Virus record (IMG/VR): IMGVR_UViG_3300046007_007307
Coordinates: 1-22,307 of that record
Length of the DNA stretch: 22,307 nt
Strand: one strand, 5' to 3'
From: a virus
This document shows, in pieces, positions 1,661 through 21,586 of the stretch; the stretch's first letter is position 1, and each line of letters starts with the position of its first letter. The position numbers and the translations under genes are program-made. The notes beneath the pieces are model-generated. The model saw only the letters and a list, made by a program, of their open reading frames with translations. It had not been told where the DNA came from and ran no database searches.

Positions 1661-3295
1661 TTACGCCGTCGCGGCGCGCTTGAATGCTGCGTCTGCGGCC
1701 ATGCCCTGCACTTGCTGGGCCTGTGCCGCCTGTGCCGCCTGTTGCTCGGCCTGCTGCTTCGATTCGCGGTAGAGCTTCAGCGCCTTCTCGTCGCGCAGCA
1801 CCTTGGCCGGGGCGCCCAGGCCGTCGGACGCGATGCGCAGTGACTCCTCGGCGTCGATCAGGTCGAGCGCCTCGGGCTTGCCCGTCTGAGCCATCAGGCC
1901 CGCAAGGCTGATGAGCCGCTCGGTCGCGCTCACATCCTCCAGCTTCTGCGCACGGGCCAGCGGCGACTGGTAGCGCACGCGGAAGACCTCACCCGCCAGG
2001 CTCTCGGGTGCATCGTCCAGCACCACTGGACCCGGCGCCCCGCCCAACTCAGGGCGCCCACGCCGGTACATCAGGCCGAACACCCGCTCGATGGTGGGCG
2101 CCAGATCCTCGGACTGGAAGCGCCCGAACAGCGGGCCCAGCAGTTGGCGGATGAGCGCCACCCGCACATGCACCTCGGTAGCCGTCATCGCCGGGCCGTC
2201 CTGCGGCTGCAGTTGGTCAGCCATCAACAGCTTGCGGATTTCGGCGCGCATCTGGTCGGCTTTGGAAAAGCTGACGTTGAAGTCCGCACCAGAGGGCAGC
2301 GGCTTGATGCTGTCCACGCTGTTGGCCACGATGACCGAGCCGCCGCGCACCTTGACCGTGCGGGGGTTCAGCACGCCGTCATCCTCGGCCACGTACACAC
2401 CAGCCGCAGCACGCGCCACGGCGACAGCCTCCAGGCGCAGCAGTTCGTTCAAGCTGCGGATGGTCGGCAGCGCGTTGGCAACCGGCCCGATGGCGTATGC
2501 GCTGTTCGGCAACTGCACCCAGCGCGGCACGATCACCGGGCTTTCGTGATAGCCGGACTCCCGCACTTCCTGCTTGCTGCTGCACTCGATGTGCACCGAT
2601 GCCACCGGCAGGTTGCGGGCCATGCGCGAGCCCGGCGCCGTGTTGCTGCGCGGGTAGATGCAGTGCATGAACTCATGCTTGGCGTCGGGCTTCAGCACGG
2701 CGTCGGTGCGAACCTTCTCGCTGAGCCGCTCCTCGCCGTATTCGCTCATGGCCTGCTCAGCGCTCAGCGTGAACTTGCGAAACACCGTGTCGATCCGCCC
2801 GCCCGGCTTGCTGGCTGCGATCCGGCATTGACTCAGCGGCCACTGCTGGAACATCAGCCGCCCGCTGTCGGCGTCCTCGTCCACGTACAGCACGAACCAG
2901 CCAGCGCACACCGAGTCAAGCACGCACTCGAACTTGGCCGAGTCGTAGTTCGCCCCGTGGATGGCTTCCCACATCGCCTCAGCGGCTTCACCGAGCCAGC
3001 GCTTCTCGTCGTCGGACTCCTCGCCCACATCCATGGCGAACCACACCGAGTTGGCCGGGGTCATGCCAGAGATGACCGACGACGTGAGCAGCCTGGCCGC
3101 GTCGGTGGCCGTGCTGTCCATCAACTCGGCCTTCTTGTTCTGCGCTGACTGGGCGTCGATGTGATCGCCCTGCAGACCGTCTGCACGCTCGGGATAGGTG
3201 GCCTCGAAACAGGCCCGCCACACCGCCACATGCCGCTGATAGTCGGCATCCATGGCGCCCCAGCGCCGCATGAGGCGGTCGGCGGTGTCGCTCAC
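1661..3295 (-). CDS. Podovirus portal (head-tail connector) protein
   Basis: The 544-residue product resembles the T7 gp8/BPP-1 type head-tail connector family. This is the dodecameric ring at one capsid vertex through which DNA is packaged and ejected and on which the tail assembles. Supporting features are the N-terminal helical part (DRLMRRW, YPERADG), the conserved SSVISGMTPANSVWF segment near residue 70, the long alpha/beta body and an Ala/Gln-rich C-terminal helix (EQQAAQAAQAQQ) typical of portal tails. The start is GTG at 3295, overlapping the stop of the upstream small gene as GTGA, so translation is probably coupled. The length is normal for the family. Confidence 0.9.
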   Translation of the reverse strand: MSDTADRLMRRWGAMDADYQRHVAVWRACFEATYPERADGLQGDHIDAQSAQNKKAELMDSTATDAARLLTSSVISGMTPANSVWFAMDVGEESDDEKRWLGEAAEAMWEAIHGANYDSAKFECVLDSVCAGWFVLYVDEDADSGRLMFQQWPLSQCRIAASKPGGRIDTVFRKFTLSAEQAMSEYGEERLSEKVRTDAVLKPDAKHEFMHCIYPRSNTAPGSRMARNLPVASVHIECSSKQEVRESGYHESPVIVPRWVQLPNSAYAIGPVANALPTIRSLNELLRLEAVAVARAAAGVYVAEDDGVLNPRTVKVRGGSVIVANSVDSIKPLPSGADFNVSFSKADQMRAEIRKLLMADQLQPQDGPAMTATEVHVRVALIRQLLGPLFGRFQSEDLAPTIERVFGLMYRRGRPELGGAPGPVVLDDAPESLAGEVFRVRYQSPLARAQKLEDVSATERLISLAGLMAQTGKPEALDLIDAEESLRIASDGLGAPAKVLRDEKALKLYRESKQQAEQQAAQAAQAQQVQGMAADAAFKRAATA

Positions 3296-6988: not shown

Positions 6989-7730
6989 TGGTTGCCTCCA
7001 TGTCGATGTAGTCAAACTCGGCAGCAGATGACTTCGGGTTCATCCACTTCGCGGCTTCAGCCTCTTTGCGGCTCATGGCATCGGGCCGCTCGTTGGCAAC
7101 GTACTTGGCATCAAAGCCCTTCCAGCCCCGCGCCATCACCCGTTCAGCCGCTGCCTTGGGCGTCCATCCGGCTTTTCGGCTTTCGGCCAAGTGATCCGCC
7201 CACGCCCTCGCAGTCAACGGCGCCTTGACGCGGGACTTGTGGGCAATGAACTCGGCAGCAGTCGCATCATCGAAACCGGCAGCAACCAACGCAGAGACAG
7301 GCGCGCACTCGGGCGCGCTCTTACGCTTCTTTGATGGTTCTACTGATGGTTCATTGATGGTTCTGGGTGCGCCGTTTGCGGGGGTGGGGTGCGCCGTTTG
7401 CGGGGGTGGGGGTGCGGTAACTGCGGGGGTGGGGTGCGCCGTTTGCGGGGGTGCGGCTGCTGCGGGGGTGCGCCAATTGCGGGGGTCTGCAATCCAGTAG
7501 ACGGTGCTGCGCCCGGTGCGGAACTCGCGCCGCATGTAGCCTTCACGCTCAAGCAACGCAATAGCGTCCTGCACGGTGCGCTCCCCTGCGCTGCACTTCT
7601 CCATGAGCGTGGGCACGGACGGATAGCACTCGCCCTGATCGTTAGCGCAGTCGCACAAGGCCAGCAACACCAGCTTCGGCGTTGACTTGATTGGCGCCTT
7701 GAATGCCGCGCTCATGAGAAGAATGCTCAC
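6963..7730 (-). CDS. O-like replication initiator with embedded iterons
   Basis: A 255-residue protein. Residues 7-85 are a winged-helix domain (KSTPKLVLLALCDCANDQGECYPS, then RTVQDAIALLEREGYMRRE and the wing STVYWIADP) of the kind found in phage and plasmid initiators. Residues 88-125 are a Pro/Ala/Thr linker with PPQTAHPTPA twice, encoded by a six-copy DNA repeat. Residues 135-245 form a helical C-terminal domain that could contact a helicase loader. GTG 7730 overlaps the upstream stop (GTGA); ATG 7715 (MSAAFKAP) is an alternative start. The plan, a DNA-binding domain with an origin in the linker DNA and a P-like gene next, copies lambda O. Initiator role: strong inference. Confidence 0.75.
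   Translation of the reverse strand: MSILLMSAAFKAPIKSTPKLVLLALCDCANDQGECYPSVPTLMEKCSAGERTVQDAIALLEREGYMRREFRTGRSTVYWIADPRNWRTPAAAAPPQTAHPTPAVTAPPPPQTAHPTPANGAPRTINEPSVEPSKKRKSAPECAPVSALVAAGFDDATAAEFIAHKSRVKAPLTARAWADHLAESRKAGWTPKAAAERVMARGWKGFDAKYVANERPDAMSRKEAEAAKWMNPKSSAAEFDYIDMEATNAAPLALR
7332..7363. repeat. AT-richer triple repeat beside iterons
   Basis: TGATGGTTC occurs at 7332-7340, 7344-7352 and 7355-7363 (plus strand), directly next to the first iteron. The spacings of 12 and 11 bases are not codon-phased. This stretch has clearly more A/T than its surroundings and could be the strand-opening part of the origin, as the AT-rich block beside the lambda iterons is. Confidence 0.45.
7365..7486. 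repeat. Six iterons: candidate replication origin
   Basis: The 21-base unit GGGTGCG-N6-GCGGGGGT (plus strand) occurs at 7365, 7387, 7410, 7432, 7449 and 7466. Both arms are identical in all six copies; only the six central bases vary (CCGTTT three times, GTAACT, GCTGCT, CCAATT). Spacings are 22, 23, 22, 17 and 17, with the last three copies overlapping by 4 bases. Since 22, 23 and 17 are not multiples of 3, conservation acts on DNA rather than peptide. Position within the initiator gene matches the lambda origin design. Confidence 0.7.
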
Positions 7731-8739: not shown

Positions 8740-9045
8740 TCATGCGGCAGTCGCTGCGGGCTTTTGCTCGGGTTCTGCGGGCGGCGCACTCAGATCAACC
8801 AGCGGGCGCCCCTTGGGGTGCGGCCAGCGGCGATCCTTGACGCGCACCCAGACGACATCCGGGCGCATTTCCTCGCATGTCACGGCGCCATCGGTGGCGC
8901 GTTCGATTGCAAGGCAGCGAGGTGCCGGGACTTGGCGGGCGCCAGTATCGGCAGTCCACTGCGACACAAGGGCGGGCGGAATGCCTAGCGTCTTTGCCAG
9001 CTTCGCGGCTGCGCCGGCTGGTTCGGTGTAGGTCTTCAGGTCCAT
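8740..9045 (-). CDS. Cro/YdaS-like transcriptional regulator
   Basis: The 101-residue product starts MDLKTYTEPAGAAAKLAKTLGIPPALVSQW, an HTH of the YdaS/Cro type (residues 9-30), followed by PAPRCLAIERATDGAVTCEEMRPDVVW, the conserved second half of this family. The C-terminus is a loose Pro/Ala tail. It is the first gene of the leftward operon, divergent from the CI-like repressor with operators between, the usual place of Cro. It likely shuts off the repressor promoter during lytic growth. ATG 9045 was chosen over 9087 because the longer start would cross the -10 box and operator. Confidence 0.8.
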   Translation of the reverse strand: MDLKTYTEPAGAAAKLAKTLGIPPALVSQWTADTGARQVPAPRCLAIERATDGAVTCEEMRPDVVWVRVKDRRWPHPKGRPLVDLSAPPAEPEQKPAATAA

Positions 9046-9053
9046 AGGCGGTG

Positions 9054-9083
9054 ATCTTAGCGCACCGCTACCTTTCACCGCAA
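9054..9083 (-). promoter_or_regulatory. Leftward early promoter (PL/PR-type)
   Basis: On the minus strand TTGCGG (9083-9078), an 18-base spacer and TAAGAT (9059-9054) form a good sigma70-type promoter directed at the Cro-like gene. The 13-bp operator 9058-9070 fills the downstream part of the spacer, and its last TA is the first TA of the -10 box, so a bound repressor would block the polymerase. Confidence 0.6.
9058..9070. promoter_or_regulatory. Operator O1 (13-bp palindrome)
   Basis: TAGCGCACCGCTA: perfect TAGCG/CGCTA arms around a 3-base centre. It overlaps the -10 box of the leftward early promoter. The same arms recur at 10031-10043. Confidence 0.6.
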
Positions 9084-9093
9084 GCACTTTCCG

Positions 9094-9106
9094 TAGCCTG
9101 ACGCTA
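9094..9106. promoter_or_regulatory. Operator O2 (13-bp near-palindrome)
   Basis: TAGCCTGACGCTA matches O1 except one arm base (TAGCC for TAGCG). Its centre is 36 bp from O1. It lies upstream of the leftward -35 box, on the repressor side of the intergenic region. Confidence 0.5.
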
Positions 9107-9117
9107 ACGGCCCGTTA
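9105..9117. promoter_or_regulatory. Operator O3 (13-bp palindrome)
   Basis: TAACGGCCCGTTA is a perfect palindrome of the same length with arms TAACG/CGTTA, one base different per arm from O1. It overlaps O2 by two bases, so the two centres are 11 bp apart, one helical turn, suiting side-by-side dimers near the repressor's own promoter. Confidence 0.5.
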
Positions 9118-9140
9118 CACCGCACTTCTACGATGCGCGC

Positions 9141-9545
9141 ATGTCTACCGTGGCCGAAATCCGCCGTGCTAATCTGAACCTGCTGTTAAAGGAGGTGGGA
9201 GAAGGCCGGGGTGATGCCGCAAAGCTCGCACGATTGACGGGCGTGAAGGCCCCGACCATCTCCCAGTTGCGCCGCCTGACCTACTACCCCAACGGGGTGG
9301 AAAGGACGATGGGCGACGACATAGCACGCAAGCTGGAACACGGTATGGACAAACCGCTTGGATGGATGGACCACCCGCACGACACCACCCGCACCATGGA
9401 TGAAGTCGAGTTCTTGCGCACCTATCGCGCACTGACCGCAGAGCAGCGCGAGCACCTGGCCGCGACGGCGGCGCTGTTCGCAAAGAACAACAGCCCGCCC
9501 ACGCCGCAGCCGGCCCTGCCTGTTCCTCCACGACAGCGACACTAG
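9141..9545 (+). CDS. CI-like phage repressor (short type)
   Basis: The 134-residue protein begins MSTVAEIRRANLNLLLKEVG and has an HTH in AAKLARLTGVKAPTISQLRR (about residues 26-46), then the conserved MGDDIARKLEHGMDKPLGWMD, the pattern of short CI-type repressors of Burkholderiales phages. Residues 88-112 form a helix (EFLRTYRALTAEQREHLAATAALF) that may dimerise; a Pro-rich tail follows. There is no LexA/S24 peptidase domain, so SOS self-cleavage is not expected and induction must work otherwise. It diverges from the Cro-like gene across the operator region. Confidence 0.75.
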   Translation: MSTVAEIRRANLNLLLKEVGEGRGDAAKLARLTGVKAPTISQLRRLTYYPNGVERTMGDDIARKLEHGMDKPLGWMDHPHDTTRTMDEVEFLRTYRALTAEQREHLAATAALFAKNNSPPTPQPALPVPPRQRH

Positions 9546-9548
9546 ACC

Positions 9549-9577
9549 TTCACGCCACGCTATCTTTGCGCTAAGAT
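9549..9577 (+). promoter_or_regulatory. Promoter of candidate small RNA
   Basis: TTCACG (9549-9554), a 17-base spacer and TAAGAT (9572-9577) would start RNA near 9584. The 12 bases TGCGCTAAGATC at 9567-9578 are identical to the operator/-10 overlap of the leftward early promoter, so the phage repressor may also bind here; the other half-site (TATCT, 9561-9565) is poor. Confidence 0.5.
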
Positions 9578-9583
9578 CCTGCC

Positions 9584-9700
9584 TGCCATTGGGTAGGACC
9601 TTGGCGCGCAACTGTTTTTGAAGCCCTTGAGCTTCTGCCGTTGACCCCTGAAAAGGGGCCGTGTCCTACCCACGGACGGCAGAGCCTCAAGGGCTTTTTC
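9584..9700 (+). ncRNA. Candidate structured phage small RNA
   Basis: About 115 nt between a promoter and a U-tract. Stem A: 9590-9599 pairs with 9663-9672 (10 perfect pairs, TGGGTAGGAC). Stem B: 9621-9631 pairs with 9686-9696 (11 pairs), continued after one mismatch by 9633-9641 with 9676-9684. Between lies CCCCT-GAAA-AGGGG (9645-9658), a GNRA-capped hairpin. The order A, B, hairpin, A', B' is interleaved, so A and B either form a pseudoknot or alternate. Stem B followed by TTTTT (9695-9699) is also a good Rho-independent terminator. No protein frame fits here. It might be only the repressor gene's terminator, but stem A and the promoter are then unexplained. Confidence 0.55.
9621..9699 (+). 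terminator. Rho-independent terminator (long stem)
   Basis: The 20-pair interrupted stem B described for the small RNA ends CTCAAGGGCTTTTT. It would stop rightward transcription from the repressor and from the small RNA promoter before the structured gap and the next operon. Confidence 0.6.
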
Positions 9701-10005
9701 GTTTCCGGCGCCAGCGGGCGCGCAGCGTGGCAAAGCGTGCAGGGCCTTGAATCGGGCCACACCGCAGAAAGACCGGCCACCCTACCCCGGGTGCGTTGCC
9801 GTCCGACCTCTCAGCGAGGGATCGGGGATGGACCGGCGAACCTAGGGTGATGACAAGCGCCGGCCCGGATTGAATCGCTGCCTCATGGGTGCGCTGGGCC
9901 GAAAGGCTGGGCGGGGAGATGACAGACCATGCGCTGTCACCCCTTGGGGAACCCATCCCCGGAGTTGAGGGGTAGGCGCGACCCTCACAAACTTTTGCAG
10001 AAAGT
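9701..10005. other. Gene-free stretch with further RNA-like helices
   Basis: No convincing protein gene. By-eye helices on the plus strand: CACCC/GGGTG (9778-9793), CCTC/GAGG (9807-9819), CCGGCG/CGCCGG (9833-9863), GCC-GAAA-GGC (9898-9907), TGACAG/CTGTCA (9920-9939), TGAGGG/CCCTCA (9966-9987), and a long-range CGGGGATGG (9823-9831) with CCATCCCCG (9953-9961) enclosing most of them. This nesting suggests a structured RNA or long leader, but in such GC-rich DNA some helices arise by chance. Confidence 0.35.
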
Positions 10006-10018
10006 TAGCGTGGGGCTA
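10006..10018. promoter_or_regulatory. Operator O4 (upstream of rightward promoter)
   Basis: TAGCGTGGGGCTA has a perfect left arm and one change in the right arm (GGCTA for CGCTA). It abuts the -35 box of the rightward promoter, 25 bp from O5. Confidence 0.5.
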
Positions 10019-10047
10019 TTGCAATGTTCTTAGCGCTGCGCTACATT
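10019..10047 (+). promoter_or_regulatory. Rightward early promoter
   Basis: TTGCAA (10019-10024), 17 bases, then TACATT (10042-10047) would start the operon beginning at 10089 near 10054. Operator O5 lies in the spacer, with its final TA forming the start of the -10 box, exactly the geometry of the leftward promoter. Confidence 0.55.
10031..10043. promoter_or_regulatory. Operator O5 (perfect palindrome)
   Basis: TAGCGCTGCGCTA has the same perfect arms as O1, nearly 1 kb away and between the -35 and -10 boxes of a second promoter. This supports one repressor controlling both early operons. Confidence 0.6.
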
Positions 10048-10088
10048 CTCTCCATCGGTTCAACGAACCAGCACACAGGAGAGCAGAG

Positions 10089-10343
10089 ATGAACGCAGCA
10101 ACCTTCGCAGACGGCACCACGGTTACCCACACCAGCAAGCGCGCTGCCACCGTTGCATGGCGCCTGGTGTACCCGAGTGGCCGCATTGAGGCGGGCAACG
10201 GCACCGGCCAGCGTTTTGCCTTCAGCAAGGACGCCGCCACCGCAGAAAAGTCTGCCAAGTCCACCGCTGCCTTCTTTCGCAAGTACGGCACCGACAAGCG
10301 CGAAGGCGGCGCCCCGCGTATCGAAATCGTCGCCGCCATCTAA
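10089..10343 (+). CDS. First gene of rightward operon, unknown
   Basis: An 84-residue small protein, MNAATFADGTTVTHTSKRAATVAWRLV onward, with AGGAGAG upstream of the ATG. It looks like a compact beta fold with a Lys/Ala-rich helix (KDAATAEKSAKSTAAFFRKYG, residues 47-67) and a short final strand. No family recognised. As first gene under the repressed rightward promoter it is expected early after infection or induction, where phages often keep host-takeover or anti-defence proteins; that role is speculation. Confidence 0.6.
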   Translation: MNAATFADGTTVTHTSKRAATVAWRLVYPSGRIEAGNGTGQRFAFSKDAATAEKSAKSTAAFFRKYGTDKREGGAPRIEIVAAI

Positions 10344-10364: not shown

Positions 10365-10685
10365 ATGTCCGCTTTGCTCACCGCCCTCCGCACCCGCCAG
10401 CCGCTGCCCACAGCCAAGCCGGCCCAGCACCGCGCCGACACCGGATGCAGCCAAGTCGAACTCGGTGAACTGACCGTGTTGGCCTACTACGAGGCTTGCA
10501 TGGTCGGCGCTGACGAACACATAGAAGTGACCGAGATCAGCGCCAACGGCTACACGGTGCCGGCTTACATGATCGCGGCGGATGTTCTGGAAGCGTGGTG
10601 CGCTGAGATCAAGGCCGAGCGTGCAAGTGATGCGCGCATGGCCCGCGAGGCTGCTGAATACGCCCGCTGGGAGGCCGCGCAATGA
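10365..10685 (+). CDS. Small early phage protein, unknown
   Basis: A 106-residue product. Residues 1-25 are Ala/Pro-rich, 29-60 carry VELGELTVLAYYEACMVGADEHIEVTEIS, then a long helix ends in the charged EIKAERASDARMAREAAEYARWEAAQ. ATG 10365 has AGGAG eight bases upstream. It overlaps the next gene (ATGA). No family is recognised; its acidic and helical character is compatible with a protein-binding factor. Confidence 0.55.
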   Translation: MSALLTALRTRQPLPTAKPAQHRADTGCSQVELGELTVLAYYEACMVGADEHIEVTEISANGYTVPAYMIAADVLEAWCAEIKAERASDARMAREAAEYARWEAAQ

Positions 10686-11507: not shown

Positions 11508-12293
11508 ATGAGCGCACTTGCTCAGATTCAGGAAACGCCCGTTGTGGCAAGCAGCGTGACAACGCCGGTTGATCTGCTGCGCATGGCCGTGCAGTCGGGC
11601 GCCGACCTCGACAAGTTGGAGCGCCTGATGGCGCTGCAGGAGCGGTGGGAGAAGTCAGAAGCAGAGAAGCAGTACAACGCCGCCTTTGCCGCTTTCAAGG
11701 CGGAGGCCGTCAAGATCGTCCGCGACAAGCTCATCAGCGCCGGCCCGTTGAACGGCAAGAAGTACGCGAGCCTGCAAGCCGTCATCGAAGCCATCACGCC
11801 CGCGCTGACTGCGCATGGCCTGTCGGCATCGTGGAAGCTCACCAAGGATGAACCCGGCTGGCTGGAAGTCACCTGTGTGCTGAAGCACGTGGGCGGGCAC
11901 GCTGAAACGGTGTCGATGGGTGGCCCGCCTGATGCCGGTGGCGCCAAGAACGCCATTCAAGCCCGCGCCTCGACCGTCAGCTACTTGGAGCGCTACACGC
12001 TCAAGGCCATCTGTGGCGTGTCTGAACAGGACGACGACGACGACGGCAACAGCGCAGGCCCCGGCCATCCGTCTGTGGGTGGACCGCGCCCCCCGGTGGA
12101 TCGCACGATGCTGATGAAGGTGCGCCGCGCTATTGCCGACAAGTTGGCGAACGGCACAGACATGGGCGCTTATCAGGAGTGGGAAGAAGCGCAGGCCATC
12201 AGCGAAGACTTCGCAAAGGACGTTTGGGCCGGACTGACTTCCGACAACCGCGAAGCCATCCGCAAGCTGGCACAGGAGTTCAACGCCAAATGA
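11508..12293 (+). CDS. erf: ERF-family ssDNA-annealing recombinase
   Basis: A 261-residue protein of the Erf superfamily (phage P22 Erf): ring-forming single-strand annealing proteins that circularise or recombine phage DNA. The core spans about 50-180: YNAAFAAFKAEAVKIVRD, KYASLQAVIEAITPALTAHGLS, WLEVTCVLKHVGGHAE and NAIQARASTVSYLERYTLKAICGV, followed by an acidic EQDDDDDG stretch. A helical C-terminal part (110 residues or less) ends at the stop that overlaps the next ATG. AAGGAG is six bases before the start. Neighbours (DUF736-like, Ref-like, NinB) make a full recombination block. Confidence 0.9.
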   Translation: MSALAQIQETPVVASSVTTPVDLLRMAVQSGADLDKLERLMALQERWEKSEAEKQYNAAFAAFKAEAVKIVRDKLISAGPLNGKKYASLQAVIEAITPALTAHGLSASWKLTKDEPGWLEVTCVLKHVGGHAETVSMGGPPDAGGAKNAIQARASTVSYLERYTLKAICGVSEQDDDDDGNSAGPGHPSVGGPRPPVDRTMLMKVRRAIADKLANGTDMGAYQEWEEAQAISEDFAKDVWAGLTSDNREAIRKLAQEFNAK

Positions 12294-12535
12294 GCTACGA
12301 CAACACCAACAGAGGCGCCCTGTTCAAGAACGAAGGCGAACGCAAGCGCGAGAACGGCCCCGACTATTCGGGCAACCTGAATGTCGGCGGGCAGGAGTTC
12401 TTTCTTGATGCGTGGATCAAGACAAGCCAGAACGGGCGCAAGTTCATGTCCGTCAGCGTGAAGCTCAAGCAGCAGCAGGCAGAGCAACAGCAGCCGCCGC
12501 GCCGGGGCCGTGCCGAGTCTGAGCCGCCGTTCTGA
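12290..12535 (+). CDS. DUF736-like small protein
   Basis: The 81-residue protein MSYDNTNRGALFKNEG...PDYSGNLNVGGQEFFLDAWIKTSQNGRKFMSVSVKLK resembles the DUF736 type: small beta-rich, possibly OB-like proteins common beside recombination or SSB genes. A Gln/Arg/Pro tail follows (residues 62-81). ATG 12290 overlaps the erf stop (ATGA), which decides against the longer in-frame start. A single-strand DNA accessory role is inferred from position. Confidence 0.65.
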   Translation: MSYDNTNRGALFKNEGERKRENGPDYSGNLNVGGQEFFLDAWIKTSQNGRKFMSVSVKLKQQQAEQQQPPRRGRAESEPPF

Positions 12536-12846
12536 TGGGACCGAGCAAGCCGCCAACCAAGACTGAGCGCGATTGGATGGCCCGCGCTGCTGACTTCGGC
12601 TGCGTGGCTTGCCGCAAAGACGGGCACCAGACGCCGGCCAGCATTCACCACATCGTGCAGGGCAATCGGCGGTTGGGGCATCTGTTCACCCTGCCACTCT
12701 GCCCGCTGCACCATCAAGGCGACGGGCGCCAGGTGCCATCGGTTCACTTCACAAAGCGCACGTTTGTGCAGCGGTACGGCAGCGAGTTGGAGCTACTGGC
12801 CGAGCTACAGATTGAGCTTGGCATCTATGACAAGGTGACGCAGTGA
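12535..12846 (+). CDS. Ref-like RecA-dependent HNH nuclease
   Basis: A 103-residue protein matching the catalytic part of phage P1 Ref, an HNH endonuclease that cuts at RecA-made D-loops. It has CVACRKDG (Cys pair, residues 23-26), SIHHIVQGNRRLGH (His pair 40-41), LPLCPLHHQG (residues 56-65), then VHFTKRTFVQRYGSELELL. Start and stop overlap the neighbours (TGATG and GTGA). Length fits small phage Ref homologues. It probably assists recombination or host-genome breakdown together with Erf and NinB. Confidence 0.8.
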   Translation: MGPSKPPTKTERDWMARAADFGCVACRKDGHQTPASIHHIVQGNRRLGHLFTLPLCPLHHQGDGRQVPSVHFTKRTFVQRYGSELELLAELQIELGIYDKVTQ

Positions 12847-13220
12847 AATTCATCCTTGCACACGAACTAGCCCGCCGCCGCGCAATGGCTGCGGTAGCCG
12901 ATGCGCCGGCCGGCTGGGTCATCAGCGTGACAGAGCCGCGCCGTGGCCTTGCCATCAATGCAGCACTACACGCCAAGCTGACCGAGATTGCACAAGCCCG
13001 GGAGTGGGCCGGCAAACGGTGGGATGTGGAAACGTGGAAGCGCCTTCTCACTGCCGCATGGGGCCGCGCTACGGGTCAAGCCGTGGTGATGTTGCCGGCG
13101 CTGGATGGTGCGGGCGTTGACATCGTGTTTCGGCGCACATCCGAACTGACGCAAGCCGAGTGCCGCGATCTGCTGGCGTTTATCGAAGCATGGGAAGCAG
13201 AAACCGAGGAAACGGCATGA
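12843..13220 (+). CDS. ninB: NinB/YbcN-family recombination protein
   Basis: The 125-residue protein carries the NinB signature: WVISVTEPRRGLAINAALHAKLTEIA, GKRWDVETWKRLLTAAWGRATG, VVMLPALDGAGVDIVFRRTSELTQAE and LLAFIEAW. Lambda NinB (Orf) supports RecA-independent recombination by acting with SSB and replacing RecFOR. It starts at GTG 12843 with a GTGA overlap and ends in ATGA with the next gene. Length is slightly below lambda's 146, as is common in Burkholderiales phages. Confidence 0.9.
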   Translation: MKFILAHELARRRAMAAVADAPAGWVISVTEPRRGLAINAALHAKLTEIAQAREWAGKRWDVETWKRLLTAAWGRATGQAVVMLPALDGAGVDIVFRRTSELTQAECRDLLAFIEAWEAETEETA

Positions 13221-13513
13221 CAACCCCCACCCTGCGCGAAGCCGCGACAGATGCGCTGCGCATCTTCGACTGGCTGCACCGCCGCTCGATCTACGGCGAC
13301 ACCGACATGGCGACCGTACATGCCAATCTGCGCGCCGCCCTAGCGCAGCCAGCGCGGGTGCCGCTGACGCCAGATCGCGTGAATGCGATCCTGACAGGTG
13401 CGGGCTACAACCGCGCAGACGCAGCAGCGCGGAGCGACTTTATCAACGGGCTGCGCCACGCAGAAGCCGCCCACGGCATCGTGCCGGCGCCCACCACCGG
13501 GGAGGGGCAATGA
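13217..13513 (+). CDS. Small phage protein, unknown
   Basis: A 98-residue product, MTTPTLREAATDALRIFDWLHRRS onward, mostly helical, with a second half (LTPDRVNAILTGAGYNRADAAARSDFINGLRHAEAAHGI) resembling small helical phage proteins. It overlaps ninB and the next gene by 4 bases each. No function assigned. Confidence 0.55.
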   Translation: MTTPTLREAATDALRIFDWLHRRSIYGDTDMATVHANLRAALAQPARVPLTPDRVNAILTGAGYNRADAAARSDFINGLRHAEAAHGIVPAPTTGEGQ

Positions 13514-14067
13514 CCCACGAACTGAAGCCGTGCCCGTTTTGCGGCAGCACGAACCTCATCACCGAAAACGCCCGCGACTTCATCGCCTGCGGAGACTGCG
13601 CCACCGAGGGGCCGTGGGTTTGCGGCCAGGGCAGCACGGAGAGCATCGAAGCCTGGAACCGCCGCGCCGCTCCCAGCGTGCCCAGCGGGGAGCCTGCCGG
13701 CATTGAAGACGAGCCCGACGCGCTGACGATTGCCTACATGATGGGCGCCGCATCGGCCAAACGCGCCCCGCAGCCAGCCCCAGCAGGGTGGCGACCGATT
13801 GAGACGGCGCCAAAGTCTGCATTGATGGGTCAGATTCTGACGTACCGCCACAACAGCCCGAACTGGACAAAAGGCGGCGGAGGTGGACCGCACTTCCAAA
13901 CATCCTTTTGGTCGGCCAGGCACGAACTGTGGGTGGGTTGGCCTTTGAACATCCAGCCAACGCACTGGATGCCACTTCCCGCCGCACCGGCAGCACCCGG
14001 GGGCGAAGCGGGGCCTAACGTGGCCGGTAACCGGACCGTTGCGGCTTGCCGCAATGGGTCCGGTTGA
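13510..14067 (+). CDS. Lar-like zinc ribbon fused to DUF551-like domain
   Basis: A 185-residue protein in two parts. Residues 1-52 (LKPCPFCGSTNLI, IACGDCATEGP, SIEAWNRRA) are a Lar-type restriction-alleviation zinc ribbon with paired CxxC. Residues 94-165 (GWRPIETAPKSALMGQIL to HWMPLPAAPAAP) are a DUF551-like domain. Lar of the Rac prophage modulates type I restriction; whether this short form does so is not shown. The last 18 or so codons lie inside an attC-like palindrome, so the natural C-terminus has been replaced or extended by the cassette junction. It overlaps the upstream gene (ATGA). Confidence 0.75.
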   Translation: MTHELKPCPFCGSTNLITENARDFIACGDCATEGPWVCGQGSTESIEAWNRRAAPSVPSGEPAGIEDEPDALTIAYMMGAASAKRAPQPAPAGWRPIETAPKSALMGQILTYRHNSPNWTKGGGGGPHFQTSFWSARHELWVGWPLNIQPTHWMPLPAAPAAPGGEAGPNVAGNRTVAACRNGSG

Positions 14068-14790: not shown

Positions 14791-15005
14791 GCCTGACACT
14801 TGCGCCCGACGAACTAGTGACCCTGACGGGCTACAAGCAGCCCGCTGCGCAGCTTGCCGAGCTTCACCGGCAAGGCTACTGGCGCGCACGCCGAGCGCCG
14901 ATTACCGGGCGGGTGATCTTGGAGCGCGCACACTATGAAGCCGTGGCGCGAGGGATTGAACAGCAGCCGGCAGACCGCCGCGCCCCGCGACTGAGGGCAG
15001 CATGA
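14787..15005 (+). CDS. DUF4224 protein preceding integrase
   Basis: The 72-residue protein starts MSLTLAPDELVTLTGYKQPAAQLAELHRQGYWRARRAP, the DUF4224 signature (LxELVxLTGYKQPxxQ), and is a short helical DNA-binding-like domain. The family sits almost always directly upstream of phage tyrosine integrases, as here, and is a candidate excisionase or integrase partner. GTG 14787 overlaps the previous gene; its stop overlaps the integrase ATG. Confidence 0.75.
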   Translation: MSLTLAPDELVTLTGYKQPAAQLAELHRQGYWRARRAPITGRVILERAHYEAVARGIEQQPADRRAPRLRAA

Positions 15006-15994
15006 CCCGATCCGACATGCCGCGCCGCGTGTACTTGCGGCACGGCTCCTATTTCTACGTGACGCCTGCTGGGAAATGGCTGAAGCTCTGCCGCGAGCGT
15101 GACGGCCTGCCGGCCATGTACCGGGCGCTGGGCCGGATCACCGACAGCGAGGCCACCAGCGACCGCATGCCCGCCGTCATCACGCGCTGGCTGGATGCCA
15201 AGCGCCCGGAGTGGTCCGACAAGACCGCAAAGGATCAGGACCGGATAGCCGGGATCATGAGCAAGCGGTTTGCCGAGTTCTCGCCGACCGAAGTCACCAC
15301 ACCCATCTGCGCGCAGTACCTGAAGACCTACGCAGCCCAGGCCCGCACGCACAACCTGCACCGCACCATGCTGTCTCAGGTGATGGCGTTTGCCGCCGTC
15401 GAGGGGCTGCGCGAGGGGCACAACCCGGTGTCCAACATCGCGCCCAAGCCATTGCAGGCCCGGCGCAGGATCGTCACCGACGACGAGGTGACAGCCCTCA
15501 AGGCATCAGCCCTGCTGCAGTCGCGCAACGGTGAGGCACTGGTGCAGATGATCGACCTGGCGATGCTGACCGGCCAGCGCATCAGCGATGTGCTGCGCAT
15601 GCGCTGGCAGGATGTCGGCCCCGATGGCGTCACCGTCACCCAAGGCAAGGGCAAGGGCGCCGTGCGGCTGCTGATCGAATGGAGCCCAGCCCTGCGCGCT
15701 GCGGTGGACGCCTGCGCCGATGGTGGCGACCGCATCGGGCATCTGCTGAAGACGCAGAGCGGCCACGGCTACCGATACGCCGGGATCAGGTCGGCATGGG
15801 ATCGTGCGTGCGCCAGAGCCGGCATTGAGGATCTGAACATCCACGACCTACGCGGCAGGGCTGGCGTCGATGCGCTGGAAGGCGCCGGCCAGGACGTTCG
15901 CGCAGCCCAGCGCCTGCTAGGCCACAGCGGCGAAGCGATGACCCGGGGCTACGTTGAGGGCAAGTACGCGAAGCGGGTGAAACCGGCCCGCTGA
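15002..15994 (+). CDS. int: Tyrosine integrase
   Basis: A 330-residue site-specific recombinase that inserts and excises the phage at the adjacent tRNA. Residues 1-50 form a small arm-binding region (YLRHGSYFYVT). About 55-150 is the core-binding helical domain. The catalytic domain has R193 (GQRISD), the beta-hairpin lysine around 216-218, H281-x-x-R284 (HDLRGRAG), H308 (LLGHSG) and the nucleophile Y317 (TRGYVEGK). All key residues are intact, so it should be active. Its gene ends 165 bases before the tRNA, which is the expected attachment region. It overlaps the DUF4224 gene by 4 bases, so both are co-expressed. Confidence 0.95.
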   Translation: MTRSDMPRRVYLRHGSYFYVTPAGKWLKLCRERDGLPAMYRALGRITDSEATSDRMPAVITRWLDAKRPEWSDKTAKDQDRIAGIMSKRFAEFSPTEVTTPICAQYLKTYAAQARTHNLHRTMLSQVMAFAAVEGLREGHNPVSNIAPKPLQARRRIVTDDEVTALKASALLQSRNGEALVQMIDLAMLTGQRISDVLRMRWQDVGPDGVTVTQGKGKGAVRLLIEWSPALRAAVDACADGGDRIGHLLKTQSGHGYRYAGIRSAWDRACARAGIEDLNIHDLRGRAGVDALEGAGQDVRAAQRLLGHSGEAMTRGYVEGKYAKRVKPAR

Positions 15995-16159: not shown

Positions 16160-16236
16160 CCGACCCTAGCTCAACTGGATAGAGCACCCGCCTTCTAAGC
16201 GGGAGGTTGCCCGTTCGATCCGGGCGGGTCGGGCCA
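16160..16236 (+). tRNA. tRNA-Arg(UCU), likely at phage attachment site
   Basis: A complete 77-base cloverleaf: acceptor CCGACCC (16160-16166) with GGGTCGG (16226-16232); D arm GCTC/GAGC; anticodon stem CCCGC/GCGGG with loop CTTCTAA (anticodon TCT, reading AGA/AGG); variable AGGTT; T arm GCCCG-TTCGATC-CGGGC; discriminator G and encoded CCA, then a second CCA. All stems pair perfectly. The first pair is C-G, unusual for a tRNA-Arg. Phage genes flank it on both sides. It is either carried by the phage or is an att junction formed from the host gene. Confidence 0.85.
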
Positions 16237-16580
16237 CCACTACGGGAAAACCCGCATGACTGACGACACCCGCGCAGCTATGGCCCAAGCGCATCAGTAG
16301 GTGGATGGCCCACACTCCCCCAAAGGTGACAGCAGAGGGTCTGTCTACCTTCGCCCAGCCTTTGGAGTTGATCCAGGCCCAGCGCACCATGGCGGCTGCG
16401 ATTCACTCGATGGCGGGGTTGTCAGTCACCTATTGCCCCATCCGTCTTGCGCGATACCTCGCAGACAGTTCGCACGGCGCGCAGTCGGTGTGTGGCCGCT
16501 GGCCGGTCTGTTGTGCGGTGGGGGTCGATGCAAACCCGCTAGCTGTTGCGCCACATCAGTCGCCGCTCTGGCTGACCGGA
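16237..16580. other. Gene-free stretch after tRNA
   Basis: Contains a small CGGG-AAAA-CCCG hairpin (16243-16254) and a 14-codon frame from ATG 16256 (MTDDTRAAMAQAHQ). No convincing gene, repeat or promoter. A longer plus-strand frame from 16305 has no protein-like pattern. Confidence 0.5.
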
Positions 16581-16589
16581 AAGGCGAAG

Positions 16590-16695
16590 ACCCGTAGCGG
16601 GTGCCCATCCGTGCTTGGCGGCATTGACGCAGTGCGTCTACGGATGAGCCCATTACGGGCCTTCAGGGTCAATTGTGTGCCAACGCCGCCAAGCA
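16590..16695 (+). ncRNA. Possible structured RNA near attP
   Basis: Helices seen by eye: ACCCG-TAG-CGGGT (16590-16602), alternatively CCCGTA (16591-16596) with TACGGG (16654-16659); CATCCGT (16606-16612) with ACGGATG (16640-16646); GACGC-AGT-GCGTC (16626-16638); and GCTTGGCGGC (16613-16622) with GCCGCCAAGC (16685-16694), ten perfect pairs that interleave with the previous stem. The order A, B, hairpin, A', B' is the same as in the 9584-9700 element. Strand and promoter are unknown; it might instead be a DNA-level site for recombination proteins. Confidence 0.35.
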
Positions 16696-16715
16696 GTGAC
16701 AGGTGTGATTTTATA

Positions 16716-19951: not shown

Positions 19952-21586
19952 TCAGTCCGTCAGCACAACCTCATGCACGCCCGCGCTTGGGCGCCAATCG
20001 TCGCGGTCTTGCTGGGTCGGAATCCCGTCAGAAGCCTGGGCCCGCACGATGCGCTCGGGCGTCTCGGCCACCGCGCCGGCCACCGCGTCGAGGTAGTCGT
20101 CGGGTTGCTCTCTGACTGCCGGGTTCCAGTCGCGCATCTGCTCGGGCAATGGCCCATCCAGCACAGACACATGCGCCCACAGTTGGCCGTCGGACAACAG
20201 CAGCGGCTCCAGGCTTTCCAGAATGCGCCGGTTCTTGTTCTGCGTGGCGGTGTCTTCCTTCACCCCGCAGGTCAGACGCTGCTGCTTCAGCGCCGCCTTA
20301 ACCACGGCCGGGCTGAATTTGCCGATGCCGTTGGTCTCGATGGTCAGGCGCGGCAGCATGAACTGGCGGATCAGGTTGCACAGCCCCAGCACTTGCCCAC
20401 CGATGATGGTCTTCCCGTCCTCGGCAAAGACGGCCACATCCCCGAGCAGCCGTTCAGTGCGGTGCAGGTAGCGCCGGCCGTCCTCGTCCTGCAGCACCAC
20501 GGCCACGGCCGACACATCGCTGGTCAGCTTGCCGCTGGCCGGGTCCCACCGCATGGAAGCCGCCACGATCCGCACGCCGCCCAGCGTCATCACGGCCTCG
20601 CCGTTGGCGCGACGAATCGTCGGCTCCACGTCGTAGGGGATCAGCCGGTCGGGGTTGAGCCTGGTGTCGGTGATCGGCTTGGAGTGCAGTTGATACTGCG
20701 AATCCCACTCGTTGATGGTGCGCGTCTGCCGGCGCCGCTTCAGCATCTCGCTCGATGTGAAGCGCTCGGGCCAAGCGCTGCCGGCGTAGCAGTCCACCAC
20801 CGCAGCCGGTGGCTTCTTGAACACCACGACCCGCCCGGTCAGCGTGTAGTCCTTGCCCGCAACCAGCAGCCGGGCCGGCTCACCGATGCCGCTGAAGATC
20901 ATCTCGGGCGCGAACGGCAACGCATAGCGCACCTCGGTGGCCATTTCGATGCGGTGTTCATGTTCAAACATGCGGATGGTCAGGCAGTCCGCGCCGAGTC
21001 GCTGCTGCTCGTCATAGAGGCTGTCGTGTGTGTGGGGCGTGCCGATGAACAGCTTCCGGCCACCGGGCACCAGAATGTGCGTCTGCTCGCCCAGCCTGTA
21101 GCGCAGTTTTTCCCGCGCCTCGGGCGTCTGGATGTTGCGCGGCACCTCGACGTCGTCGTTCTGGCACTCGTCGGCCCGTGCCGAGGTGACGTTGGACAGG
21201 ATGCCCTTGGCGTACATGCTCGCGTTGCGGGCGTCGGTGGCGCCATGCACCCACCACTGCTCGACCTCGCCCTCGCGCAACATGCCGGCAGTCAGCGGGT
21301 GTGCCGCAATCACGTTTTTCGTGTCGCGGCTGGTCTTGTACGCGGTCGGGTCGCTCTCGGACTGGTGCAGGATGCGGAACGTGGGGTCGCTGTAGTACCT
21401 CCAGGCGTTGTAGACGGCCAGCAGCGTGGACTTGCCGAACCCTCGGAAGCACCGCAACACCGCCAGGTCGCCCCGCGTCTCAAGCCAGTAGCAGGCGCGG
21501 ATGTGGATGGCCGGCACCACCCAGCGCTGGCGCTCCGCCCACATCAGGAAGAACGCCAGGAAGGTGATCTTAGGCTTTGCCGCCAT
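19952..21586 (-). CDS. terL: Terminase large subunit (podovirus type)
   Basis: The 544-residue DNA-packaging motor. Walker A is CFRGFGKST (residues 46-54); the ATPase lobe continues with TSRDTKNVIAAHPL, SARADECQNDDVEVP (acidic Walker B region) and LFIGTPHTHDSLYD. The C-terminal RNaseH-like nuclease has ASMRWDPASGKLTSDVSAVAVVLQDEDG, TIETNGIGKFSP and the final DDYLDAVAGA acidic residues. It matches T7 gp19/BPP-1 type terminases in order and size. The ATG at 21586 overlaps the end of the upstream gene, suggesting coupling with a small subunit. The tail-fibre gene follows after 27 bases. Confidence 0.92.
   Translation of the reverse strand: MAAKPKITFLAFFLMWAERQRWVVPAIHIRACYWLETRGDLAVLRCFRGFGKSTLLAVYNAWRYYSDPTFRILHQSESDPTAYKTSRDTKNVIAAHPLTAGMLREGEVEQWWVHGATDARNASMYAKGILSNVTSARADECQNDDVEVPRNIQTPEAREKLRYRLGEQTHILVPGGRKLFIGTPHTHDSLYDEQQRLGADCLTIRMFEHEHRIEMATEVRYALPFAPEMIFSGIGEPARLLVAGKDYTLTGRVVVFKKPPAAVVDCYAGSAWPERFTSSEMLKRRRQTRTINEWDSQYQLHSKPITDTRLNPDRLIPYDVEPTIRRANGEAVMTLGGVRIVAASMRWDPASGKLTSDVSAVAVVLQDEDGRRYLHRTERLLGDVAVFAEDGKTIIGGQVLGLCNLIRQFMLPRLTIETNGIGKFSPAVVKAALKQQRLTCGVKEDTATQNKNRRILESLEPLLLSDGQLWAHVSVLDGPLPEQMRDWNPAVREQPDDYLDAVAGAVAETPERIVRAQASDGIPTQQDRDDWRPSAGVHEVVLTD

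Follow-up and report, generated by a model that had tools for sequence, protein, structure and literature searches.

The window, i.e. the whole stretch of viral DNA analysed here (22,307 nt, IMG/VR record IMGVR_UViG_3300046007_007307), carries a repressor gene at 9141-9545, and between this gene and the right operon, in the immunity region, lies a structured element that starts 40 nt past the repressor stop codon. The two downstream genes that were tested (10089-10343 and 10365-10685) gave no Pfam or PHROG match. A putative promoter (TTCACG, a 17-nt spacer and TAAGAT, 9549-9577, plus strand) has its predicted start at about 9584-9585 and is weak, with 8 of 12 consensus matches. On the same strand follow the P1 hairpin GCCA/TGGC (9585-9605), whose pairs covary and whose loop carries the 5' strand of helix A (TGGGTAGGAC, 9590-9599), and the 5' strand of helix B or P2 (9620-9631 and 9633-9641). 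Next come the P3 hairpin CCCCT-GAAA-AGGGG with its GAAA tetraloop (9645-9658), the strand A' (GTCCTACCCA, 9663-9672), which forms 10 pairs with A, and immediately after it B' (9676-9684 and 9686-9697), which lies opposite 9620-9641 and forms 12 + 9 pairs around one C.C mismatch. The T-tract TTTTT (9695-9699) closes this 5' module, so that B' and the T-tract (9676-9699) form an intrinsic-terminator-like end, a G+C-rich stem followed by a T run. The sequence-only reading had proposed interleaved stems at 9549-9700 in the order A, B, GAAA-hairpin, A', B', and both the stems and their order were borne out. A scan for the interleaved topology (A, B, A', B') scored -64 at 9585-9704, a value that was never reached when the whole window was dinucleotide-shuffled 100 times (best -61.1, median -47), and the nested MFE of 9584-9704 was -58.6 kcal/mol (z = -5.0). 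The layout was the same in the related contigs L018, L003, L046 and L045, and the P3 tetraloop was GAAA in L018 and L046 and GCAA in L003.

The extent first proposed holds for the 5' module and falls short of the full length. Actually, 9585-9704 makes up no more than the 5' module; the structured phage RNA element to which it belongs measures about 350-400 nt, and conservation reaches approximately 9950. The 250 nt past the terminator are conserved also in L003 and L004 and make up a 3' domain (~9705-9950, plus strand), the core of which was delimited at 9741-9897 by R2, a covariance model of this domain. It ends in CACCCCTTGGGG and contains a pseudoknot between CAGCG, in a hairpin loop (9812-9816), and CGCTG (9876-9880), both on the plus strand. 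No conserved terminator closing the 3' domain was found. A conserved tail TATCACCCTTGGGGAACCTAT at the 3' ends of the members (e.g. L045, ~7349-7366) has a slight likeness to the 3' end of 16S rRNA (GGGGAACC, ATCACC), in a different order, which may be due to chance. A second copy of the whole element was found in the window on the minus strand (~16702-16317; R2 core 16539-16379, E = 1.6e-28). It was first seen as a weak match (16579-16700) to R1, a covariance model built from the window and L018 only, with the same layout and other arms, and the 250 nt downstream of its 5' module match 9705-9950. Its arms A (GCTTGGCGGC, 16694-16685) and A' (GCCGCCAAGC, 16622-16613, then B' ACGGATGGGC) differ from those of copy 1 yet stay complementary, and a -10-like sequence TATAAAAT is found at 16708-16715 on the minus strand.

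Copy 2 lies about 80 nt from a tRNA-Arg; nine other loci examined with Rfam (besides L057) had no tRNA nearby. This tRNA-Arg(TCT) gene is complete (16160-16236, plus strand) and stands beside a tyrosine integrase (15002-15994, plus strand); lysis-like, fibre and terminase genes flank it on the opposite side. The sequence GCCTTCTAAG recurs approximately 85 nt upstream of the tRNA-Arg anticodon arm and could be an attachment-site arm. The terminase (19952-21586) and the portal (1661-3295), both on the minus strand, are about 60% and 53% identical to those of Yersinia phage YeP4, whose early region differs from that of the window. The window is a mosaic.

About 20 further IMG/VR contigs carry the element, some of them near-duplicates and all of them phage DNA, from many metagenomes. 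Relatives of the window repressor (66-71% identity) were found in L003 and L004, and directly downstream of them the same layout is present, with A TGGGTGAGAC and A' GTCTCACCCA and with different B/B'. What these two have in common with the window is limited to the immunity genes, the RNA and, on the L003 contig, one weak protein match. L018 was found by a pattern search (A TGGGTGCGAC, A' GTCGCACCCA), its element sitting between terminase-like and portal-like reading frames, named by eye from sequence and position. R1 recovered L003 and L004 at ~1e-13 and L046 at 5e-24. A pattern search with the 3' region led to L045 and L046, and a second pattern to around sixteen more true members; in members found in this way the fixed bases of the motif are conserved through the choice of hits, while the motif had N at two covarying columns of the 3'-domain pseudoknot, the 5' side of which lay outside the motif. 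R2 gave 22 hits at E <= 1.6e-28, mostly build sequences or near-duplicates, and the six loci outside the build set are near-duplicates of included ones. Near-duplicates among the members are L051/L061, L053/L064, L060/L063 (3' domain) and L003/L004. The pattern matches L017, L047, L048 and L055, together with most matches of one pattern search, were discarded as chance.

Outside these contigs, blastn against phage and plasmid records gave no homologue; a weak phage match, MW202753, lies inside a gene, and R2 finds nothing there. No element was found with R1 and one pattern in 399 Burkholderiales genomes, nor with R2 in 369 genomes from the class or 398 from the phylum, in searches of low sensitivity and partly overlapping samples. 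The initial screening step evaluates few candidates in each genome, and with R1 it overlooked two known viral members, so that bacterial genomes may yet contain the element. An Rfam search had been suggested for the original site, and no family matched: Rfam 15 gave no match at the gathering threshold for the window and ten homologous loci, nor up to E = 10 for window 9000-10100 and L054 9700-10260. The literature search returned no description of this element. Two further places deserve mention. In the phage G003 (L038), which otherwise carries the 5' module only, ATGGGCCTGGATGGGCTGGCATGGCAAGAAACACCGG at 1966-2077 (minus strand) resembles the start of the 3' domain, with an uncertain partial R2 match of 16.6 bits. 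L067 (MW202545.1), from a phage with a large terminase 67% identical to the one in L063, has a 1.4-kb stretch without annotated genes (12227-13602) near the small terminase gene, in which R2 finds nothing.

The 3' domain keeps its sequence and, across 16 members compared, carries compensatory changes at 20 of its 31 predicted pairs. Including the pseudoknot, 95% of the cells are paired versus 78% in shuffles, and the covariation is 0.456 versus 0.154; none of 500 shuffles did as well. The pseudoknot helix itself (helix 5) is 100% paired with compensatory changes at two of five pairs, CAGCG/CGCTG becoming CAGCT/AGCTG in L003 and CTGCG/CGCAG in window copy 2. Two U-G pairs (columns 9-15 and 77-86) are kept in all 16 sequences, supporting the plus strand as the RNA. 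A minus-strand protein in this domain (the AQRTHEAAI... frame) was considered and rejected: the frame has an in-frame stop in L003 and L004, is lost in L046, lacks a common start and shows weak codon periodicity, so that RNA is favoured instead. The candidate small RNA of the sequence-only reading is very probably an RNA; the reading was incomplete in that it took in just the 5' portion of a larger element.

The 5' module behaves differently, with A/A' and B/B' rewritten in almost every lineage and their complementarity retained. In nine lineages the helix between the P1 loop and A' has 7 pairs, is 100% paired and is compensated at six of the seven, in segments assembled by hand so that the count leans towards pairing; this indicates interleaved stems that are genuine and under selection. 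An automatic search for A/A' across all members confused A with B in several of them and was left out of the evidence. The arms are longer in L057 (13 pairs), L058, L050, L066 and window copy 2, and between L003 and L004 stem B shows a compensatory A-T to T-A exchange. The clearest case is L050 versus L058, in which every stem of the 5' module differs and the pairing is still intact. These two are identical at 433 of 440 positions upstream (98.4%), 288 of 289 in the 3' domain (99.7%) and 333 of 348 downstream (95.7%). Their 5' module appears as a hypervariable island, some 110 bp long, in surroundings of otherwise 96-99.7% identity. Losses that would have counted against the sequence-only reading were confined to a few homologues: L056 has B/B' and no clear A/A', and L060 and L063 have the 3' domain without a 5' module, behind a gene and with no good promoter seen. 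L018 has a 5' module without an adjacent 3' domain detectable by R2.

The original idea of an RNA linked to the repressor and silenced by it did not fare well. The box that the RNA promoter was said to share with the leftward promoter does exist, as exact copies of TGCGCTAAGATC at 9053-9064 (minus strand) and 9567-9578 (plus strand). The RNA promoters of the relatives L003/L004 and L046 lack this box, and therefore control by the repressor is not supported. Most members do have a promoter-like sequence of their own, with -10-like sites at the matching position in L003 (TATAAT), L018 (TAGGAT), L045 (TAGAAT) and L046 (TACAAT), and homologues have promoters better than that of copy 1, for instance TTGACA-18-TAGAAT in L045. 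As to linkage, the element follows closely behind the repressor in L003 and L004, within the same immunity region as in the window, and in L046 it is also in the immunity region and faces a repressor homologue convergently. Window copy 2, L018, L045, L054, L060, L063 and others lie away from any recognised repressor. The repressor as a key partner was also discarded from the other side: the distant repressor homologues L007-L012 and L016 have no such element downstream by eye, and among those tested R1 found none. The element comes after large-terminase genes in L054, L063 and L064 and apparently in L018, close to both a tRNA and a terminase in L057, and among early-type genes, by eye, in L045, L062 and others. 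Its orientation to neighbouring genes is inconsistent across phages. With varied places and orientations in unrelated phages, the element is autonomous.

The predicted fold of 5' module plus 3' domain is well supported, and most likely we are dealing with large non-coding phage RNAs of a new family, which has a pseudoknotted terminator as its 5' head. When the transcript was folded up to A', the probability of A-A' was 0.63-1.0 in 13 of 14 members (L059 disfavours it, P = 0.03), and when B' was added the nested fold dropped A-A' for the terminator stem in 13 of 14 (window copy 2 keeps it). This early formation and late loss makes plausible both alternatives of the initial proposal, a pseudoknot or a sequential refolding; since the program cannot display A-A' and B-B' together, the drop-out is compatible with a coexisting pseudoknot. 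If the two helices do coexist as a true pseudoknot, no switch would be necessary. In 13 of 19 members B' is followed by a run of four or more Ts, 31-50 nt ahead of the 3'-domain core, and the T-tract is poor in window copy 2, L018 and L046. From these features we infer that the element would be transcribed and its 3' core attenuated by the 5' module. During the passage of RNA polymerase the P1 loop (A) would pair with A'; as B' emerges the long B-B' stem would close and many transcripts might end at the T-tract, with the remaining ones reading through to make the 3' core. This core would be the effector, probably a stable non-coding RNA. L060 and L063, in which the 3' domain behind a gene has no 5' module, count in favour of such a head. 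The arms would be free to vary as long as they pair, and may even be pressed to change so that copies avoid cross-pairing. Taken as a whole, the reading of a structured phage RNA with an attenuator head and a 3' effector core seems to us about evenly balanced between right and wrong.

A possible although less probable account is that the 5' module is a complete trans-acting small RNA of about 115 nt ending at the T-tract, with the 3' domain a separate entity that often travels with it. It fits an end that looks like a terminator and has a T run in the majority of members, and it also fits L060/L063 and their reverse, L018, which suggests that the 5' module may be complete alone. However, both parts occur together in nearly all members, mostly at similar spacing, no promoter is evident by eye between them, and the lack of conservation in the 5'-module sequence would be unusual for a small RNA with conserved host targets. 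The head, rapidly exchanged, could also be an RNA identity tag on the constant 3' core, copies with the same arms recognising and regulating each other and copies with different arms not; such a recognition role of the arms is conjectural and we think it unlikely. Distinctly improbable is an immunity based on self-recognition, by which the RNA of a resident phage would pair in trans with the same arms of an incoming copy and block it, in the manner of the antisense RNAs of immunity (C4, P4 CI) or of plasmid copy control. Arms that are hypervariable yet complementary on a constant chassis speak for it, as in L050 versus L058 or in the two copies of the window, and the immunity-region location in the window, L003/L004 and L046 agrees with it. 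Many copies are nevertheless outside immunity regions, the interleaved intramolecular arms cannot give a continuous two-arm duplex between two molecules, and no antirepressor or other target was identified.

Very doubtful is a mainly structural RNA in which A/A' kissing loops would assemble copies into a homo-oligomer, comparable to GOLLD and ROOL, RNAs that phages also carry, or to the phi29 packaging RNA with its loops. The P1 loop contains A in the window and L018, where a 7-nt hairpin loop holds A'; the model alignment shows L046 to be similar. In addition, the element is phage-borne, adjoins terminase genes in several phages and is near a tRNA in L057. Against this, A' is a linker and not a loop in L003, L045 and L062, the Rfam covariance models of GOLLD and ROOL do not match, and the element is shorter than both. 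Finally, it is scarcely credible that the element amounts to no more than a DNA site, or the 3' untranslated region of the repressor mRNA with its terminator, as its closeness to the repressor stop in the window and L003/L004 might suggest, given that it is convergent in L046 and has no recognised repressor near other members, and that U-G pairs, GNRA loops and an oriented T-tract indicate an RNA of one strand.

Structured large phage RNAs lacking a known function are few and poorly understood, and this one is absent from Rfam 15. Near-identical phages with wholly different self-pairing 5' modules constitute a natural experiment, in which it can be tested whether the arms encode specificity or serve as neutral scaffolding. 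Among known systems, HDV-like ribozymes have a similar strand order (P1, P2, P3 hairpin, P1', P2'), and the element shares their interleaved P1/P2 with an internal hairpin. Between P1' and P2' these ribozymes have P4 and the catalytic J4/2 segments, whereas most members of the element have an A'-B' gap of 0-5 nt, too short for them; in addition, the arms have no conserved bases and the Rfam match is absent. The function of the C4 antisense RNA of phages P1 and P7 (RF01695) rests on short complementary stretches (PMC12197685). Our element is also a phage RNA with such stretches, but its arms are interleaved within one RNA, most copies are outside the immunity region, no antirepressor was seen, and the Rfam covariance search of the window and homologous loci gave no RF01695 match. 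GOLLD and ROOL are large ornate RNAs of phages and prophages, sometimes near tRNA genes, pseudoknotted and without known function (PMC12286853). The element is likewise a large structured phage-borne non-coding RNA with pseudoknots, all members being on IMG/VR viral contigs and several beside terminase genes, and like GOLLD it has a conserved 3' part and a less conserved 5' part (PMC12286853). By covariance model it is outside GOLLD, and it differs from both in its size (~350-400 nt versus ~650 for ROOL and >800 for GOLLD), in its internal terminator-like stem and in arms that are rewritten between near-identical phages. Attenuator leaders, for their part, precede a gene and not a non-coding RNA domain, and the 5' module has no conserved ligand site; what it has in common with them is a promoter, an upstream strand, a terminator and an alternative helix able to form before the terminator.
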